DNA from: a virus
Reading direction: 5' to 3' (one strand)
IMG/VR virus record: IMGVR_UViG_3300002231_001545
Coordinates: 1-29,675 of that record
Length of the DNA: 29,675 bases
The notes beneath the pieces were generated by a model. It saw nothing but the letters and a program-made list of their open reading frames with translations. It did not search any database and was not told the DNA's origin. Made by a program: the position numbers and the translations under genes. Of this stretch, positions 17,091 to 24,702 are shown in pieces (positions within the stretch are counted from its first letter, which is position 1; every line of letters starts with the position of its first letter).

Positions 17091-18335
17091 ATGCCGCATA
17101 ACGATAAAGAAACACAAAAGAAGTTCAAGTTTTTCGAAACCTTAGGGGTCACTTTGGGCTCAATGCCAAAAGCAACCAATAAGTTGGGCGCTGTCCAATT
17201 GTATGCGGAAAGAGAAAATTATAAGCTCACCGCATACCCTGAATACATCGGCATAACTCCAAGAGATATGTGGAGAAAAGATTTGTATTATGGGAAGGTT
17301 GATTATGATGGGGCATTTGTTCTTCCTAGCGAGGATAGTCTTAAGCCCCTTGAGGGATCCACAAATGAGACGTTTCTTTTGGTAAATTTTGTGGCTGATG
17401 CGTTTGAAGACTTCAAGAATTATTTTGGCGAAGCCTTTTTGCGTGCTCCATCACTGGCTCAGCAAAGTATTTTTAAGAATATAAAAGTCAAGAAGGCATG
17501 GTTTAGTCTTACTAATGAGTATCATGGTCTGGTCAACAATGTCTATTCTTTTTTTACGAATGATTTTTTGAAGATCAACAATAAGCACGCCGACATCAAG
17601 AATTTTAAAGATTTTTTTCATATCTTTTTTGATTTTTTGAAGGGCTATATTGTAGATTTTCCTTTTACAAAGACGGGCTTCGTGTCTTCGGCATTTACAA
17701 GTCCCCTAGCTAGTGGACTAATTGTCGAATTGGCGGATCAAAGCCACTCCAAAGATGAGCCTAAAGTGACAAAGTGGCTTCACGACCCAAACTATCGATT
17801 TTATGCACAAACAGCACAAGATTTTGGATTCAAGATAGACAAGAACGCACCTTGGCGCTTGATTGCCGACATAAAGTCTCCGCCAATGCGGTCTTATATG
17901 GCTAGGTATGGAGTGGCTCCCGAGGACTTGTTCGAGTCCGATTATTTTTACCAGACTCATCTAATCGATATTCCAACTCTTCAGGTCTATTTTTACACAT
18001 TTTATAATTCTTATGTGCAAGCTTACCCTATCGCCAAAAAGCCTGTTGTCTGTTCGGGGAAAACAAAAAATAAAACAATCGTTAGAAAAGCCTTGACAGA
18101 GGAGCAATTTGCTGGTATTATCTCTATTAGAAAGTGGTATGAGCTATATGTCATGCTGCGAGCAATGGAAACAAAAAAAGACTGGAACGAGCAAAAAATA
18201 AAAAAAATTGTTGACAAAGCTCACGCAATGTTTAAAATACAAGGAGTGATACAGGCTCAAGAGTACTTAGACATGCATTTCCGTCCCAAGCAATTACAAA
18301 GAGGCGACAGTGATATTCCAGATACTAGACGATAA
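17091..18335 (+). CDS. protein of unknown function at the structural/replication boundary
   Basis: 414 aa, not recognised. It is rich in Phe, Tyr and Lys, with aromatic helices such as FFHIFFDFLKGYIVDF (about 173-190) and YFYTFYNSYVQAYP (about 305). No signal peptide, no nucleotide-binding motif and no zinc site are evident. It begins 22 nt after the hub-like gene and its end overlaps the polymerase gene by 26 nt. Given its position it is probably a late virion or tail protein, but a replication role cannot be excluded. A strong sigma70-like promoter lies inside its last quarter. Confidence 0.85.
   Translation: MPHNDKETQKKFKFFETLGVTLGSMPKATNKLGAVQLYAERENYKLTAYPEYIGITPRDMWRKDLYYGKVDYDGAFVLPSEDSLKPLEGSTNETFLLVNFVADAFEDFKNYFGEAFLRAPSLAQQSIFKNIKVKKAWFSLTNEYHGLVNNVYSFFTNDFLKINNKHADIKNFKDFFHIFFDFLKGYIVDFPFTKTGFVSSAFTSPLASGLIVELADQSHSKDEPKVTKWLHDPNYRFYAQTAQDFGFKIDKNAPWRLIADIKSPPMRSYMARYGVAPEDLFESDYFYQTHLIDIPTLQVYFYTFYNSYVQAYPIAKKPVVCSGKTKNKTIVRKALTEEQFAGIISIRKWYELYVMLRAMETKKDWNEQKIKKIVDKAHAMFKIQGVIQAQEYLDMHFRPKQLQRGDSDIPDTRR
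18093..18121 (+). promoter_or_regulatory. sigma70-like promoter for the replication operon (inside a gene)
   Basis: TTGACA (18093-18098), 17-nt spacer, TATTAT (18116-18121), preceded by an A-rich stretch. It lies 189 nt upstream of the polymerase start, inside the coding sequence of the unknown 414-aa gene. It would let replication genes be expressed without the late structural transcript. Confidence 0.6.
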
Positions 18336-19530
18336 GAAGAGTTGTGTGGGGTTCTACACAGACGGCAAAATACAGTATCAAATACCACAAAATTTGACCG
18401 CCACTTGGAAATGGGCACCCATAATGGCAGACGTCACTCGACCCATAAAATATGCCTATTTTTACACAAACGGAGCCCCCATTGAGGAAGTTTGTCCTCC
18501 TCATCTAAAAGAGGAGTTCGCCGCCTATTCCAAAAAGATGAAGGCGTTTCTCCGTTCGTTCAAACTTGCCAAGGTCAATCTTAACGACAATTGCTTCTTT
18601 GACCTTGTTCCATCACAATACCTCTTGAAATATTGTGCCATCAAGAACGAGATTACACAGCACGTCTTTCAGAACTATGAGTATCCAAAAGCTCACGGAT
18701 ACTATATCAAGCTGACCGACCTTATCCATAAGATTTCCCAACAAGAGCTGAATCTAAAGAAGGAGAACTTTACTCCTACTGACTTGATGAATCGGCAGAC
18801 AAGAAATTTTTATTCAAAGCTCGACGAAATGCCGAGAAGAATAAAATACGAAATCTTCGGCGGCAAAGGGGGTCGACTTCGCACCTCTCCCAATTCTTTC
18901 AAGATTTTTGCACTGAACAGGGACTACCGCAAAGTCATCGTTCCGCAAAATGATTTCTTTTTGGAGCTGGACTATAACGGGGATCATCTCCGTGCTATGT
19001 TGGGCCTTGCCCGAGTCAAGCAGCCGAAGGGAGACATTCACGCCATCAACGCAAAGAAGATATTCGGAGGAATAACCAGAGACGATGCCAAGAAGAGATT
19101 TTGGAAATGGGCATACAACGAGAACAACACCCACAAGAATTTAGAAGCCATCTACAAAAGAACAGAAACAAAAGAAAAATACTTTGATGGGGAGCACATT
19201 ACGACAATATTTGGAAGAAAACTGAAGGCAACATCAGGAAATGCCTTCAACTACATCATTCAATCTACGGCAAACGACATTTTGTGTCAGAAGGCAATCG
19301 ACCTAAAAGTTTTCCTAGAGAACAAAAAAAGCTTTATTTCTTTCTTACTTCATGATAGTATCGTCTTTGACATGAGCGCTGATGATAAGAAGATGGTCAA
19401 CTTTCTTATCTCGCTCTTCAGCGATACTCGTTTTGGAAAATACAAAGTAAATGCCAAGATGGGCACCAGCTTTGGTACAATGGTGGATTATGATGGAGAC
19501 GATAGTCGGTTTGGGAAAAGCTGGGAGTAA
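18310..19530 (+). CDS. minimal family A DNA polymerase
   Basis: 406 aa from GTG 18310 (GAGG just upstream). Carries the family A palm and fingers: GGRLRTSPNSFKIFAL (187-202), motif A LELDYNGDHLRAM (218-230, catalytic D221), motif B R257...K261...W265...Y269, the NAFNYIIQSTANDI block (311-324), and motif C LLHDS (346-350, catalytic D349). It probably replicates the phage genome. There is no 3'-5' exonuclease domain; the length equals little more than the polymerase half of E. coli Pol I. By my alignment, the Pol I residues Glu710, Phe762 and Glu883 are His226, Trp265 and Ser350, which is unusual. It overlaps both neighbours (26 and 38 nt), so expression is tightly coupled. Confidence 0.88.
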   Translation: MIFQILDDKKSCVGFYTDGKIQYQIPQNLTATWKWAPIMADVTRPIKYAYFYTNGAPIEEVCPPHLKEEFAAYSKKMKAFLRSFKLAKVNLNDNCFFDLVPSQYLLKYCAIKNEITQHVFQNYEYPKAHGYYIKLTDLIHKISQQELNLKKENFTPTDLMNRQTRNFYSKLDEMPRRIKYEIFGGKGGRLRTSPNSFKIFALNRDYRKVIVPQNDFFLELDYNGDHLRAMLGLARVKQPKGDIHAINAKKIFGGITRDDAKKRFWKWAYNENNTHKNLEAIYKRTETKEKYFDGEHITTIFGRKLKATSGNAFNYIIQSTANDILCQKAIDLKVFLENKKSFISFLLHDSIVFDMSADDKKMVNFLISLFSDTRFGKYKVNAKMGTSFGTMVDYDGDDSRFGKSWE

Positions 19531-20323
19531 TATTGCCAAAGTATTTGGCAAATACCCCCAATATGAGGCAATCACCATCGACACCGATGGCGATGCTGAC
19601 TTTCTTTTGCCAAAGATGTCCTCGGCAGAAGAATACGACGCAGAGGATTATGAATTCGGCGCATTGTTCCAGAAAACTTCCCACAATGTGACGTTTATTG
19701 TGAGTGGGGGAGGAAATGTATCCGCTGCTACCCTTCGCATCTTGGAGCAGATAAAACATAAGAATATTACAATAATTTATGTTCAACCGGACATCTCTCT
19801 TTTGATGGGCGAGAAAGAACTCCACCAAAAAGCAATGTTCGGAATCCTTCAGGAATATGCTCGCTCTGGCGTCATCGCCCGATTGGTGCTGATTTCGAAC
19901 ACGGAAATGGAAAAGTTTGCCGGCGACTTGCCGATTATTGGGTACTACGACAAAATCAACAATTTGATCACCCAGACACTTCATGTTATGGGCGTGTTCG
20001 AGAAATCAGATTCTGTGATGAGTAATCACACTCCAATAAGAGCGGGAAGCCGCATCACAACTGTGTCTTTGGTGGAGTACGAAAAAAATCAAGAAAAAAT
20101 GTTTTTTTCCCTTGACAATGAGACAGAAAGAAGGTATTATTACGCTATAAACAAAGAAAAGCTTCAAAAAGAGGGAGGTCTACTGAATAAGATAAAAGAG
20201 CACCTAAAATCGAATAACAGAGGAGGGGAAGTCAAAACATCTTTTTCTATCCACTCCACATCGCATGATAAAGATTACGCATATTGTTTAATTTGTACGT
20301 CAAACATCCAAAAAATAGAATAA
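19493..20323 (+). CDS. FtsZ/tubulin-like GTPase-fold protein
   Basis: 276 aa from ATG 19493, chosen because METIVGLGKAGSN puts the glycine loop at the very N-terminus; the frame is also open from ATG 19451. Landmarks of the tubulin/FtsZ fold appear in order: GLGKAGSNIA (6-15, T1-like), AITIDTDGDA (26-35, like FtsZ NTD), VTFIVSGGGNVSAAT (66-80, where FtsZ has GGGTGTG), IIYVQPD (94-100), LVLISN (131-136), a helix DKINNLITQTLHVMG (153-167), and a C-terminal half ending in a strand YCLICTSN (264-271). The signature loop is degenerate (no Thr), so polymerisation and GTPase activity are uncertain. The gene lies between polymerase and SSB, not in a structural block. A role in moving or centring replicating DNA, or in blocking host FtsZ, is inference. 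Alternative: another Rossmann-fold nucleotide-binding protein. Confidence 0.7.
   Translation: METIVGLGKAGSNIAKVFGKYPQYEAITIDTDGDADFLLPKMSSAEEYDAEDYEFGALFQKTSHNVTFIVSGGGNVSAATLRILEQIKHKNITIIYVQPDISLLMGEKELHQKAMFGILQEYARSGVIARLVLISNTEMEKFAGDLPIIGYYDKINNLITQTLHVMGVFEKSDSVMSNHTPIRAGSRITTVSLVEYEKNQEKMFFSLDNETERRYYYAINKEKLQKEGGLLNKIKEHLKSNNRGGEVKTSFSIHSTSHDKDYAYCLICTSNIQKIE
20112..20140 (+). promoter_or_regulatory. sigma70-like promoter for the SSB gene (inside a gene)
   Basis: TTGACA (20112-20117), 17-nt spacer, TATTAT (20135-20140). The -35 and -10 boxes are identical to those at 18093. It lies in the 3' part of the FtsZ-like gene, 242 nt before the SSB start. Confidence 0.55.
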
Positions 20324-20381: not shown

Positions 20382-21131
20382 GTGGCACTTGATTTGAAAA
20401 AAATGAAGCAGAAGTTGGACAATTTGCAAAATCGTGGCGGAGGGTCGAGCACCATTCGATTCTGGAAGCCGCAGGAGGGGAACAATACAGTCCGTATTGT
20501 ATGTCCTAAAGATGGCGACGCCTTCAGAGGAAGGCATCTTCATTACAATGTAGGCAAGCGAGCCTTTTTGTGTCCCGAGAAGAACTTCGATGAGGATTGC
20601 CCAGTTTGCGATTTTGGTCGAAGTCTTTACAAGCAAGGAGATCCCGAAAGCATCTCTCAAGCCAAGACTATGTTCGCCCGACAACGATACTACTCCCCCG
20701 TAGTCGTCCGTGGCGAAGAAAGTGAAGGCATTCGTTGGTGGGGATACGGAAAAACAGTATATGAGACATTGTTGAAGCTCGTGCTCAACCCAGAATATGG
20801 AGACATTACGGATCCAGAAACTGGGACTGACCTTGATGTAGCCTACGACAGACCACCCGGAGCGTCGTTCCCAAAAACGACCATCGTCGCCAAGCGCCGA
20901 GCATCTCCCGTCTGTCCTGACATGGCAAGTGAAGAATGTCGTGAACTTTTGGACTCTATCCCCGACTTTGACGCTCTCTTCGACACTAAGTCGTCAGCCG
21001 AGATTACTGCTCTTCTGAATGAACACCTCACCACCGAGGCGGATGCAGAAGGGCTTTCGACAGAGACAGAGAAGTACGCATCCACAACAAAATCCACCGT
21101 TGATGATGCCTTCTCAGAGTTGCTCGGCTAG
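20382..21131 (+). CDS. single-stranded DNA-binding protein (gp32-like)
   Basis: 249 aa, GTG start with AAGGAG upstream. It coats ssDNA in replication and recombination. As in T4 gp32, there is a basic N-terminal arm (MALDLKKMKQKLDNLQNRGG), a core with strand IRFWKPQEGNNTVRIV, and a zinc site H52 (or H54), C64, C73, C76 with spacing close to that of gp32 (H64, C77, C87, C90). A long acidic, Ser/Thr-rich C-terminus ends in DDAFSELLG and would bind partner proteins. T4 gp32 is 301 aa. Followed by a strong terminator. Confidence 0.88.
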   Translation: MALDLKKMKQKLDNLQNRGGGSSTIRFWKPQEGNNTVRIVCPKDGDAFRGRHLHYNVGKRAFLCPEKNFDEDCPVCDFGRSLYKQGDPESISQAKTMFARQRYYSPVVVRGEESEGIRWWGYGKTVYETLLKLVLNPEYGDITDPETGTDLDVAYDRPPGASFPKTTIVAKRRASPVCPDMASEECRELLDSIPDFDALFDTKSSAEITALLNEHLTTEADAEGLSTETEKYASTTKSTVDDAFSELLG

Positions 21132-21202: not shown

Positions 21203-21898
21203 ATGTCAAAAAGAGCAGGAAAAATTGACAAAGGCTTTCTAACGAGAGTCAACAAAAAGCTTGGAAGAAAAGCTTTATATAACCTTAACGACGAAGAAGA
21301 CCCAACTGTTATTCCTTATTGGGTCCCAACTGGCTCTCGCTGGCTGGATTCCATTGTGGCCCGAGGAAAGGTCACAGGAATTCCAGGCGGAAGAATTACA
21401 GAAATCGCAGGGTTAGAAGGGACTGGTAAGTCGTGGATGGCATTGAAAATCGCAGTCAATGCGCAGAGAATGGGGATGCCCGTCCTTTGGGTTGATTCTG
21501 AGGCTTCTTTCGATAAAGAATACGCCCAAGATATGGGCATCGACTTTGGGGGCGAAGACTTCTTTTATGTTAGAGGTCTTTCTGTGGAAGAAACGCTCGG
21601 CACAGTTGAAGAATTCTTGAAGCAAGGAGTTCAGTCATTGGTGGTTTGGGATTCTCTTGCTCAGACGCCTTGCGAAGCTGAGATTGAAAAAGATTATAAC
21701 CCCAATGCTGATGTCGCCCGAAAAGCACGAGTGCTGTCATTGGCGATGAAGAAGCTGACTGTGCCAGTGAGCGAGACTGAAAGCACATTCGTGGTCCTCA
21801 ATCAGCTCAAGACGAACATCACAAGTAATATGTATGAGGCAATGGCGACCCCTTATGTCACACCAGGAGGAAATCTCTTGACTATTCTTATTCATTGA
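21203..21898 (+). CDS. uvsX: RecA/UvsX recombinase, N-terminal fragment (frame broken)
   Basis: 231 codons, then a premature stop. Walker A GLEGTGKS (70-77), the VLWVDSEASFD strand (94-104), Walker B LVVWDS (146-151), the FVVLNQLK strand (196-203) and the start of loop L2 (TPGGN, 220-224) identify a phage RecA-type strand-exchange protein. RecA proteins continue from GGN into AL.(Y/F), so a single base appears to be missing after 21874. The sequence resumes in the -1 frame as LDYSYSLRIWLTKRKSKK, and a second -1 change near 22020 leads to the C-terminal part. Restoring both bases gives about 371 aa, a normal size. It lies between SSB and FEN nuclease genes, as expected for phage recombination. 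Sequencing error and true inactivation cannot be told apart here. Confidence 0.85.
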   Translation: MSKRAGKIDKGFLTRVNKKLGRKALYNLNDEEDPTVIPYWVPTGSRWLDSIVARGKVTGIPGGRITEIAGLEGTGKSWMALKIAVNAQRMGMPVLWVDSEASFDKEYAQDMGIDFGGEDFFYVRGLSVEETLGTVEEFLKQGVQSLVVWDSLAQTPCEAEIEKDYNPNADVARKARVLSLAMKKLTVPVSETESTFVVLNQLKTNITSNMYEAMATPYVTPGGNLLTILIH

Positions 21899-22022
21899 GA
21901 ATTTGGCTGACAAAGAGAAAGTCAAAGAAAACTCATGTCAACGATGAGCGAGGATTCAAGACTGGATACGAAGTCAAGTGCACGCTCAAGAAGTCTCGCT
22001 TCGGTGGAGAAAATAGGGTTTG
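21875..22022 (+). pseudogene. RecA/UvsX middle segment in a shifted frame
   Basis: Read in the frame containing 21877, this gives LDYSYSLRIWLTKRKSKK, then HVNDERGFKTGYEVKCTLKK and SRFGGENRV. This matches the part of RecA after loop L2, including the conserved KSRFG. It has no start signal of its own. Confidence 0.75.
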
Positions 22023-22316
22023 TTCTTTCAATCTTATTTTGCAGGCGAGAACACAGGCATTGAGGACGAAGTCAGCTGGCTTGAAGCTTTGCGTGGAAGC
22101 AACAGCATCAGAACCGCTGGCGCTTGGTCAACCTTGACTTATGCTGACGGCTCGGAAGAGAAGTTCCAGAAGGCTAATTGGGTCAAGAAAATTAAAGAAA
22201 ACGAGAAATTTAAAAACCGCATTCTTGAGTTGATGGACGAAGAGGTCGTCTTGAAGTTTGAGAAAGCAGTGTCCGGTGGAGCAGAATTTTATTCGCTTCC
22301 AGGGGACCAACACTGA
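22020..22316 (+). CDS. uvsX: RecA/UvsX recombinase, C-terminal fragment
   Basis: From about 22023 the frame reads FFQSYFAGENTGIEDEVSWL, then EALRGSNSIRTAGAW and a helical end (KIKENEKFKNRILELMDEE), typical of the end of phage RecA proteins. No convincing start codon or ribosome site precedes it, so it is the tail of the broken gene rather than an independent one. The stop is 20 nt before the nuclease gene. Confidence 0.7.
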   Translation: MFFQSYFAGENTGIEDEVSWLEALRGSNSIRTAGAWSTLTYADGSEEKFQKANWVKKIKENEKFKNRILELMDEEVVLKFEKAVSGGAEFYSLPGDQH

Positions 22317-22336: not shown

Positions 22337-23314
22337 ATGGCGAAAAGATTGTTGATAATTGATATGCTCAATCTTTTTATACGCAATTACACAGTGAACC
22401 CGTCTCTTGATGACAATGGCGTTCCTGTTGGCGGTGTAAAAGGGACTTTGGGGAGCATTCAGAAAATCTCCAAAGAGGTCAAACCAGATGAAATAGTTAT
22501 TTGTTGGGACACCGCTGGTGGCTCGCTGCGACGCAAATCGCAAAACAAGAACTATAAATCAGGAAGACGTCCAATCAAACTAAATCGTGTATACGAAGAT
22601 CTGGACGAAAAAGCCGCCGAACAGAACAAAATAAATCAAATCGTCAGATTGACAGAATATTTGAACCTTATGCCGATCATTCAATTGTCTGTTGAGGGCG
22701 TTGAGGCAGACGATATTATATCTTTTGTCTCCCAGGCACGACAATACAGTGATTGGCATAAGGTCATTTATTCTTCAGATAAAGACTTCTATCAGCTTTG
22801 CAACAAAAGAACTTTTGTTATTCGCAGAGTGAAGCAAGAATATAAAGCTGTCACCGAATCAAAGCTCGTGGAAGAGTTCAACATTCATCCAAACAACTTT
22901 GCCCTGGCAAGAGCCCTCGTTGGCGATAAATCTGATAACATTGTGGGAATCTCTGGGGTTGGAATGAAAACCGTAGCCAAGTGTTTCCCTTTCCTTTCTG
23001 AGGGCAAAACTTACTATATTAACGACATTATTGAGCACGCAAAGCAGAAATTGGAGGAGAGAACCCGAACCACCATCTATGGCAAGATTGCGAACTCAGA
23101 AAAGATAATCAAAGACAATTATGATATGATGCAGCTGTATTCCCCGCTGCTCTCAGTGAAAGCCGTCGAGCAAGTCAACTACGCTCTGGACAACTTTGAA
23201 TATGATTTTAATCAAACAAAGTTCTTGACAATGATAATGAAAGACGGTATAAGTAGTTATAAGTTTGATGACCTGTTCCGATGCCTGAGCCGCATCATTC
23301 GAGACAATAAATGA
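22337..23314 (+). CDS. 5'-3' exonuclease / flap endonuclease (T4 RNase H type)
   Basis: 325 aa, with GGGGGAG before the ATG. It removes RNA primers and flaps at the fork. PIN/FEN metal ligands are visible: D9 (LLIIDMLN), D58, E123/D125/D126 (GVEADDI), D148/D150 (SSDKDF), D197/D200 (VGDKSDN). The helix-three-turn-helix DNA grip follows (NIVGISGVGMKTVAK, 201-215). Length is close to T4 RNase H (305 aa). It supplies the nuclease activity that the minimal polymerase lacks. It overlaps the helicase start by 4 nt (ATGA). Confidence 0.92.
   Translation: MAKRLLIIDMLNLFIRNYTVNPSLDDNGVPVGGVKGTLGSIQKISKEVKPDEIVICWDTAGGSLRRKSQNKNYKSGRRPIKLNRVYEDLDEKAAEQNKINQIVRLTEYLNLMPIIQLSVEGVEADDIISFVSQARQYSDWHKVIYSSDKDFYQLCNKRTFVIRRVKQEYKAVTESKLVEEFNIHPNNFALARALVGDKSDNIVGISGVGMKTVAKCFPFLSEGKTYYINDIIEHAKQKLEERTRTTIYGKIANSEKIIKDNYDMMQLYSPLLSVKAVEQVNYALDNFEYDFNQTKFLTMIMKDGISSYKFDDLFRCLSRIIRDNK
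23225..23253 (+). promoter_or_regulatory. sigma70-like promoter for the helicase gene (inside a gene)
   Basis: TTGACA (23225-23230), 17-nt spacer, TATAAG (23248-23253), located in the end of the nuclease gene, 58 nt before the helicase ATG. Confidence 0.5.
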
Positions 23315-24702
23315 CAAGAAACGCAGAAAGTTTTTCAAAATATGGTCGTCCCTTCCAAGAAGGCCTCGTGCAGATAATCCTTGATGATCGTGCCTTCGCC
23401 GATCAGATTGGGGAAGTTCTTGACATAGAGTTTTTGGAACTAAAGCATCTACAATTATTCTTGAGGAAATTATACGGATACAAAGAAAAGTATCGCTCTC
23501 ATCCATCACGAAAGATGATGGCAACAATGTTGCGAGCAGACATCTCAAATGAGCCCGAAGCGCTCCAGAAACAAGTTCGTGATTATTATGCCAAGGTTCT
23601 GGCATCCCCCGCTCTTCTCGAAGAAGAAGAATATATTCGTGAAGCTTCTTTGGACTTCTGCCGCAAGCAAAAGCTCAAAGAGGCGATGATAAAATCAGTC
23701 AAGCTACTCAAGAATTCTTCTTTTGACGAGATTAGCGAAGTTATCAACAATGCTTTGAAGCTCGGCTCAGAGAATAACTTTGGGCATGAATACATCAAAG
23801 ACTTTGAAGAGCGCTTCGTCGTAAAAGCAAGAAGCCCAGTGTCAACTGGCTGGCCCTTGATGGACGGCATCACAAACGGTGGACTGGGGAAGAGCGAGCT
23901 TGGAGTGGTTCTTGCTCCGACTGGAGCTGGAAAGTCAATGGTTCTCGTTCATCTGGGAGCAGCAGCAGTAAAGGCTGGAAAAACGGTTGTCCATTACACG
24001 CTCGAACTCCAAGATACAGTGGTTGCAACCAGATATGACTCCTGCATCACGGGAATCCCGCTGAACAGTGTCTATCAGTTCAAAGACGAAGTTTACAAAA
24101 AGATTAAAGATATCAAAGGAAGCTTGATTGTCAAGGAGTACCCGACCAAAACAGCATCGACCAACTCAATTCGTGCTCATTTGGAAAGACTTCGACAACG
24201 CTCCATCTACCCAGATATGATTATTCTTGATTATGCAGACTTGCTCCGTCCAATCAAGGTGGAAAAAGAAAAAAGAAATGAGCTTGAATCCATTTATGAG
24301 AATCTTCGGGCCATGTCGCAAACTTACGAATGTCCAATTTGGACAGCAAGTCAGACAAACAGAAGTGGACTGAGCGTTGAGGTTGTCACAATGGAAGAAA
24401 TCTCAGAGGCATATTCAAAGTGCTTTGTCGCTGATTTTATCTTCTCGTTGTCACGGTCGAAAGAAGATAAAATTGGGAATACAGGCAGATTCCACATCGC
24501 CAAGAATAGGAACGGACCAGATGGAAGAACGCTCCCGATTTTTATGGACACCAGAAATGTTAGAATCGAGACTTTCAATAGCAAAGACCACAGAGACGAT
24601 GAGCTAAAAAAGAGAAAGAAGAATATAAGCAAAACAACAGCAGAAAAATACCAAATGCACCTAAAGGAGAAGAAAAATGGCGTACACCAAGTCACAGGTT
24701 GA
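23311..24702 (+). CDS. replicative DNA helicase (DnaB/gp41 type)
   Basis: 463 aa. A helical N-terminal domain (1-150) is followed by a RecA-fold motor: TGWPLMDGITNGGLG (179-193), Walker A APTGAGKS (202-209), HYTLELQD (228-235), Walker B MIILDYADLL (303-312), the sensor stretch WTASQTNRSG, and AKNRNGPDGR near the end of the fold. It unwinds DNA ahead of the polymerase as a hexamer. No primase domain is fused, and no primase gene is in the window. The Lys-rich C-terminus overlaps the RNR start by 26 nt. Confidence 0.92.
   Translation: MTRNAESFSKYGRPFQEGLVQIILDDRAFADQIGEVLDIEFLELKHLQLFLRKLYGYKEKYRSHPSRKMMATMLRADISNEPEALQKQVRDYYAKVLASPALLEEEEYIREASLDFCRKQKLKEAMIKSVKLLKNSSFDEISEVINNALKLGSENNFGHEYIKDFEERFVVKARSPVSTGWPLMDGITNGGLGKSELGVVLAPTGAGKSMVLVHLGAAAVKAGKTVVHYTLELQDTVVATRYDSCITGIPLNSVYQFKDEVYKKIKDIKGSLIVKEYPTKTASTNSIRAHLERLRQRSIYPDMIILDYADLLRPIKVEKEKRNELESIYENLRAMSQTYECPIWTASQTNRSGLSVEVVTMEEISEAYSKCFVADFIFSLSRSKEDKIGNTGRFHIAKNRNGPDGRTLPIFMDTRNVRIETFNSKDHRDDELKKRKKNISKTTAEKYQMHLKEKKNGVHQVTG

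Follow-up and report, generated by a model that had tools for sequence, protein, structure and literature searches.

Results

A tubulin-like gene between the polymerase and SSB genes of a T4-related phage

We analysed a virus record of 29,675 bases (the window, by which we mean this whole stretch of DNA) and conclude that it is a fragment of a T4-related (far-T4-like) phage. Its structural genes (tail sheath, tail tube, gp15-like stabiliser and baseplate) are followed by replication genes, which encode a polymerase, the protein considered here (hereafter family A), SSB, UvsX, a 5'-3' exonuclease, a DnaB-like helicase and ribonucleotide reductase. The features around the family A gene are:

17091-18335, + strand: conserved ORF of 414 aa preceding the polymerase, without Pfam or PHROG match, syntenic in relatives
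18310-19530, + strand: short family-A DNA polymerase, the upstream neighbour (PF00476, 9.4e-9; phrog_17, 1.6e-12)
19493-20323, + strand: tubulin/FtsZ-superfamily protein, family A (276-aa ORF; assigned by homologues and predicted fold)
20382-21131, + strand: gp32-like SSB, the downstream neighbour (PF08804, 8.6e-13; phrog_1192, 1.2e-29)
21203-22316, + strand: UvsX/RecA recombinase (PF00154, 3.7e-31), its ORF broken by two frame changes
22337-23314, + strand: 5'-3' exonuclease (PF02739, 7.2e-29)
23311-24702, + strand: DnaB-like helicase (PF03796, 2.2e-19)

A preliminary description had placed an FtsZ/tubulin-like ORF at 19493-20323, overlapping the polymerase gene and preceding that of SSB, and this was upheld: the ORF is real, and its start overlaps the 3' end of the polymerase ORF, which stops at 19528-19530. 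Translation could equally well begin at an in-frame ATG at 19490. The three motifs named there, GLGKAGSN (residues 6-13), ITIDTD (27-32) and SGGGNVS (71-77), are all present in the protein, and they are not due to chance, because 122 distinct homologues largely keep their glycines. Residue 276, the last of the protein, comes right behind the final strand and a short IQ motif that is conserved; the protein stops with the fold, lacking the C-terminal linker and conserved peptide of FtsZ as well as a TubZ/PhuZ-type C-terminal tail.

The frame changes in UvsX fall at ~21850-21880 and ~22040, and relatives have a single ORF, mostly of 370-400 aa; a sequencing or assembly error, or else a decayed gene, is the likely cause. 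In most relatives whose sequence extends that far, the 414-aa ORF occupies the same place.

Family A is widespread among uncultured phages and its position is conserved

Used alone, the family A protein had no significant match in Pfam, PHROGs, NCBIfam or PDB sequences (a single PHROG row, E 0.0018, covered 16 residues only), a single-sequence search of IMG/VR found no relatives, and sequence searches of 50,697 phage records with it or with a second member found no relative. With the neighbouring SSB as bait we obtained 80 IMG/VR loci, 73 of which, in addition to the window, carry a family A homologue upstream of SSB; of the seven others, four are cut off before the slot and three have other genes there. 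Homologues are 28-42% identical. A wider search with a 58-row alignment of family A raised the number of relatives in IMG/VR to at least 595. A set of bacterial and archaeal genomes yielded no relative, and family A was likewise undetected in Flavobacterium phage immuto, Microcystis phage Mel-JY01, LR756508, RM378 or 201phi2-1. Thus, with relatives in IMG/VR and none in phage records or cellular genomes, family A is, as far as we have seen, restricted to phages and uncultured. We take the phages that carry it to be probably marine, which is an assumption.

The gene order ORF414, polymerase, tubulin-like gene, SSB, UvsX, exonuclease, DnaB is kept across relatives. Among 153 loci carrying the family A gene, SSB lies no more than 1.3 kb downstream in 141 of the 142 with room for it, the sole exception being L064 (~1.5 kb), and the polymerase lies no more than 1.5 kb upstream in 116/134. 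These counts are biased, as part of the loci were fetched through SSB; the loci fetched with the family A profile agree. The question raised in the preliminary description, whether relatives keep the gene between polymerase and SSB, is therefore answered positively for nearly every relative that could be checked. Where a polymerase gene is nearby, it abuts or overlaps the family A gene in about half of the loci. In the 30 closest of 150 comparisons, dN/dS for family A was 0.026-0.092; the gene is under strong purifying selection in close pairs.

In most of the other loci with a nearby polymerase, a small ORF starting YNKLVRDKIP lies between the two genes (for example L002:5785-6084, L018:2022-2363 and L145:5681-5995); by its appearance we take it to be a MazG-like NTP pyrophosphatase.

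The slot is not always filled by family A. In three SSB-bearing contigs (L005, L034 and L052), SSB is preceded by other genes, and the isolates immuto and Mel-JY01 have a different gene between polymerase and SSB; thus, the function of family A is not universal among T4-related phages. We considered that the two short ORFs in the polymerase-SSB interval of immuto might be a split family A copy and rejected this, as the family A profile did not match them. An ORF of ~130-155 aa with the motif HRKK.SNT.YTIN.LN fills the slot in immuto, Mel-JY01 and the 484-kb LR756508 (L159:1346-1801, L160:5789-6256 and L161:7338-7748); neither the window nor the remaining fetched loci yielded it.

Family A has a predicted tubulin-superfamily fold

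AlphaFold2, given the 58-sequence family A alignment, returned a confident model (pLDDT 94.5, pTM 0.92); folding from a single sequence gave a poor one (pLDDT 42.6), which we set aside. In a Foldseek search with the model, the top 50 solved structures in the PDB were all members of the tubulin superfamily, FtsZ first (E 1e-12 to 1e-10, TMq 0.65-0.74), then TubZ and tubulin (best matches overall, E 1e-12 to 7e-10, TMq 0.63-0.74). VIA-align Z scores over residues 1-276 were 24.0 for CetZ, 23.9 for TubZ, 22.5 for FtsZ and 21.7 for beta-tubulin. Among viral structure models, the only clear matches were proteins named FtsZ or tubulin and PhuZ, the best at 15% identity, and thus family A itself seems to be absent from that library. 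Because the whole length of a confident model matches FtsZ, TubZ, CetZ and tubulin, the tubulin-superfamily fold of family A is as firmly established as a prediction allows. The N-terminal Rossmann GTPase domain, the central helix H7 and the C-terminal domain stand in the tubulin arrangement in the model and its whole-length matches. The preliminary assignment to FtsZ/tubulin, which the lack of a tubulin core, central helix and C-terminal domain would have refuted, is supported by this predicted fold, in which all three are present.

Some genomes carry a second, canonical FtsZ-like family

One contig with family A, G005 (166 kb), also encodes a 364-aa protein with canonical T1 (GVGGGGGK), T4 (AGGGGGTGS) and T7 (FDSKDL) motifs, which we call family B. 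It matches FtsZ by sequence (PDB, 1.1e-9; PF00091, 3.1e-6, below the cut-off), and one query found 107 relatives in IMG/VR. Family B occurs in contigs of up to 281 kb; one member is:

L162, 1030-2121, - strand: family B protein, contig IMGVR_UViG_3300025131_009739 (relatives L167-L246)

Both families belong to the tubulin superfamily, but B keeps the canonical T4 and T7 and a sequence match to FtsZ, while A does not. For family A, PF00091 gave no match with the window protein and matched only 2/58 members, short of the cut-off (best E 0.049), a profile search of PDB sequences found nothing significant, and comparison of the A and B profiles matched T1 alone. Since the PDB profile search was null and the comparison with B reached only T1, sequence alone cannot place family A.

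The two families occur together in 4/12 B contigs, and five of the large contigs searched have both. Three contigs (184-191 kb) have A without detectable B, and five (178-281 kb) have B without A. We therefore rejected a constant pairing of the two, as each occurs without the other in contigs of ~180 kb and more. Family B proteins have a variable, acidic N-terminal extension with a conserved DFDFV-type motif.

Family A keeps residues for nucleotide binding and lacks the T7 acid pair

We counted residue conservation over 122 distinct homologues and assigned residue correspondences from a weak profile alignment together with predicted secondary structure. The motifs are:

19508-19531, + strand: T1-like loop GLGKAGSN, residues 6-13 (G6, L7 and G8 99-100%; G11 97%)
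19703-19723, + strand: altered T4 signature SGGGNVS, residues 71-77 (G72 90%, G74 79%, S77 80%)
19787-19792, + strand: T5-like P-D, residues 99-100 (P99 82%, D/E100 93%)
19850-19867, + strand: family hallmark QEYARS at a helix end, residues 120-125 (95-100% per position, 122 homologues)
19898-19900, + strand: T6-type asparagine N136 (84% N), aligned to IPN of E. coli FtsZ via family B
19946-19960, + strand: H7 start, Y152-D-K-I-N156 (Y152 66%, N156 84%), aligned to the FtsZ H7 start via family B
20006-20053, + strand: T7/H8 region, residues 172-187, catalytic acid pair absent (122 homologues)

The T4 loop follows the family pattern [GSCA]-G-[SAG]-G-x-[IV]-S and does not meet the GGGTGTG / GGGTGSG signature; a permissive profile alignment, with a weak overall score, sets SGGGNVS against AGGGGGTGS of family B. 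We take N136 to be the guanine-recognition position of FtsZ/tubulin. In beta-tubulin, H7 starts Y-G-D-L-N (Y224/N228), a Y-x-x-x-N spacing equal to that of Y152/N156. Family A thus retains base-recognition residues in both T6 and H7, in a register that comes from a weak profile alignment. We infer from these residues, without biochemical data, that family A likely binds guanine nucleotide through T1, T5, T6 and the H7 start.

In the 203-kb contigs L249 and L250, which carry both families, the T4 loop of family A has lost most of its glycines, and nucleotide binding may have been lost in part of the family, for example in this branch.

The T7 acid pair (NxDxxD) of FtsZ and the active GTPase tubulins is missing from family A. 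The window protein has no acidic residue in 174-194, and across the 122 homologues no acidic column in T7/H8 exceeds 58%. D249 and D252 are invariant in family B, and E. coli FtsZ also has a D-x-x-D pair at T7. Because T7 lacks the pair, FtsZ-type hydrolysis, in which the GTP of a neighbouring subunit is activated, is unlikely, an inference made from sequence alone. The absent acids strengthen the earlier suggestion of a divergent or non-hydrolysing branch; GTP binding and filament formation remain inferred.

R187 (98% conserved) lies, like QEYARS, outside the nucleotide loops, and the conservation of both raises the possibility that they form a partner surface. A QEYTRS variant of the hallmark occurs in L248 and L249.

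Discussion

We searched the literature and found no report of family A, and FtsZ and tubulin go unmentioned in two papers on Far-T4 phages (PMC4360716; PMC7198788). We conclude that family A adds a new branch to the viral tubulins, in a genomic place not reported before: a tubulin-like gene, syntenic and strongly selected, in the replication operon of a large uncultured T4-like group, without a Pfam, PHROGs or NCBIfam family.

Family A shares with FtsZ the two-domain fold, the order of elements, the T1 loop, the T6 Asn and the H7 start, but is ~12-14% identical to it, has GGGTGTG replaced, lacks the T7 acid pair and C-terminal tail, and is encoded in a phage replication operon. CetZ gives the highest structural Z (24.0), tied with TubZ, but is cellular, 15% identical and without common genomic context. 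With TubZ and PhuZ, family A has in common the fold (TubZ Z 23.9; PhuZ-type viral models E 1.6e-7 to 7e-6), a viral origin and likely nucleotide binding, but it has no sequence match to them, no C-terminal tail and no T7 acids, and it differs in its replication-operon location. The phage tubulins known so far belong to nucleus-forming jumbo phages or to plasmid-like phages, and PhuZ serves those that form a nucleus (PMC3678025; PMC8314001). In six relatives carrying family A, nothing matched the 201phi2-1 nucleus shell protein (gp105, chimallin) by sequence; the positive control was found, and distant versions are not excluded.

Our best reading, held tentatively (probability roughly 0.42) and inferred as to role, is that family A is a tubulin-like protein that binds nucleotide, probably without hydrolysing it, and serves as a scaffold of the phage replication machinery. 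In this view, family A would be made together with the polymerase and SSB, as inferred from its place, and would bind guanine nucleotide through T1, T5, T6 and the H7 start; with no acid pair in T7, it would not complete an FtsZ-type active site on the neighbouring subunit, and any polymer would therefore be stabilised by nucleotide, with slow turnover, rather than dynamic. Such a scaffold may cluster or position phage replication complexes or new DNA inside the host cell; we do not propose virion movement, the role of PhuZ. The preliminary description had linked the gene to replication rather than virion assembly, and its place in the operon supports this and suggests a replication role without proving it; the role is inferred. 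Against the scaffold reading, the T4 loop is degenerate, a TubZ/PhuZ-type tail is lacking, there is no direct sign of polymerisation and there are no biochemical data. If it is true, replication would be organised by a cytoskeleton in phages that seem to lack a nucleus.

Nearly as probable as the scaffold is that family A is a tubulin-derived, nucleotide-dependent cofactor of the replisome that does not polymerise, a monomer or dimer that would bind polymerase or SSB through its QEYARS face and use GTP as a switch or just for folding. The overlap or abutment with the polymerase gene in many loci, the loss of the T7 acids, the near invariance of QEYARS and R187, which lie away from the nucleotide loops and could serve a partner, and the short, tail-less protein all favour this possibility, but the nucleotide-side loops T1, T6 and H7 are retained, and both domains of a polymer-forming fold are intact in the model. 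A dynamic PhuZ/TubZ-like cytomotive filament, which would centre or move phage DNA or capsids by GTP hydrolysis, is suggested by the common superfamily and by PhuZ and related viral tubulins being among the few significant viral structure matches; we consider it improbable, given the absent T7 acids and C-terminal tail and relatives without a sequence match to the 201phi2-1 shell protein.

Phage inhibitors of FtsZ exist, such as T7 gp0.4, lambda Kil and SPO1 gp56, and a mimic of host FtsZ had been offered in the preliminary description. As a decoy or cap, family A would be a dead subunit that joins or ends host filaments and so blocks division during infection. FtsZ is the best Foldseek match, and the missing acid pair is as expected of a poisoned subunit, but identity to FtsZ in the structural alignment is only ~12-14%, FtsZ polymer and tail motifs are lacking, and the gene is fixed in a core replication operon, not in a variable early region. 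This option is not shown and remains as a rival that we regard as doubtful. We also considered a Rossmann-fold NAD(P)-binding protein in place of a tubulin, on the basis of weak TrkA_N and NAD-binding Pfam matches (TrkA_N in 16/58 members, best 4.6e-6), and rejected it as all but excluded: the matches cover the common Rossmann stretch alone (33 residues in the window protein), and the top structural matches are all to the tubulin superfamily and extend over the whole length, including the C-terminal domain.

A bolder version of the scaffold reading is also possible, in which family A abandoned catalysis and turned into a constant structural component of the replication machinery throughout a group of T4-related phages; in some of these it would stand beside a second phage FtsZ with intact catalysis, and the two may form mixed filaments. 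Alpha- and beta-tubulin, which form mixed filaments, offer an analogy for A and B. The loss of the T7 acids, together with a canonical second copy in some genomes, makes these phages a natural experiment on tubulins that lose hydrolysis or pair.
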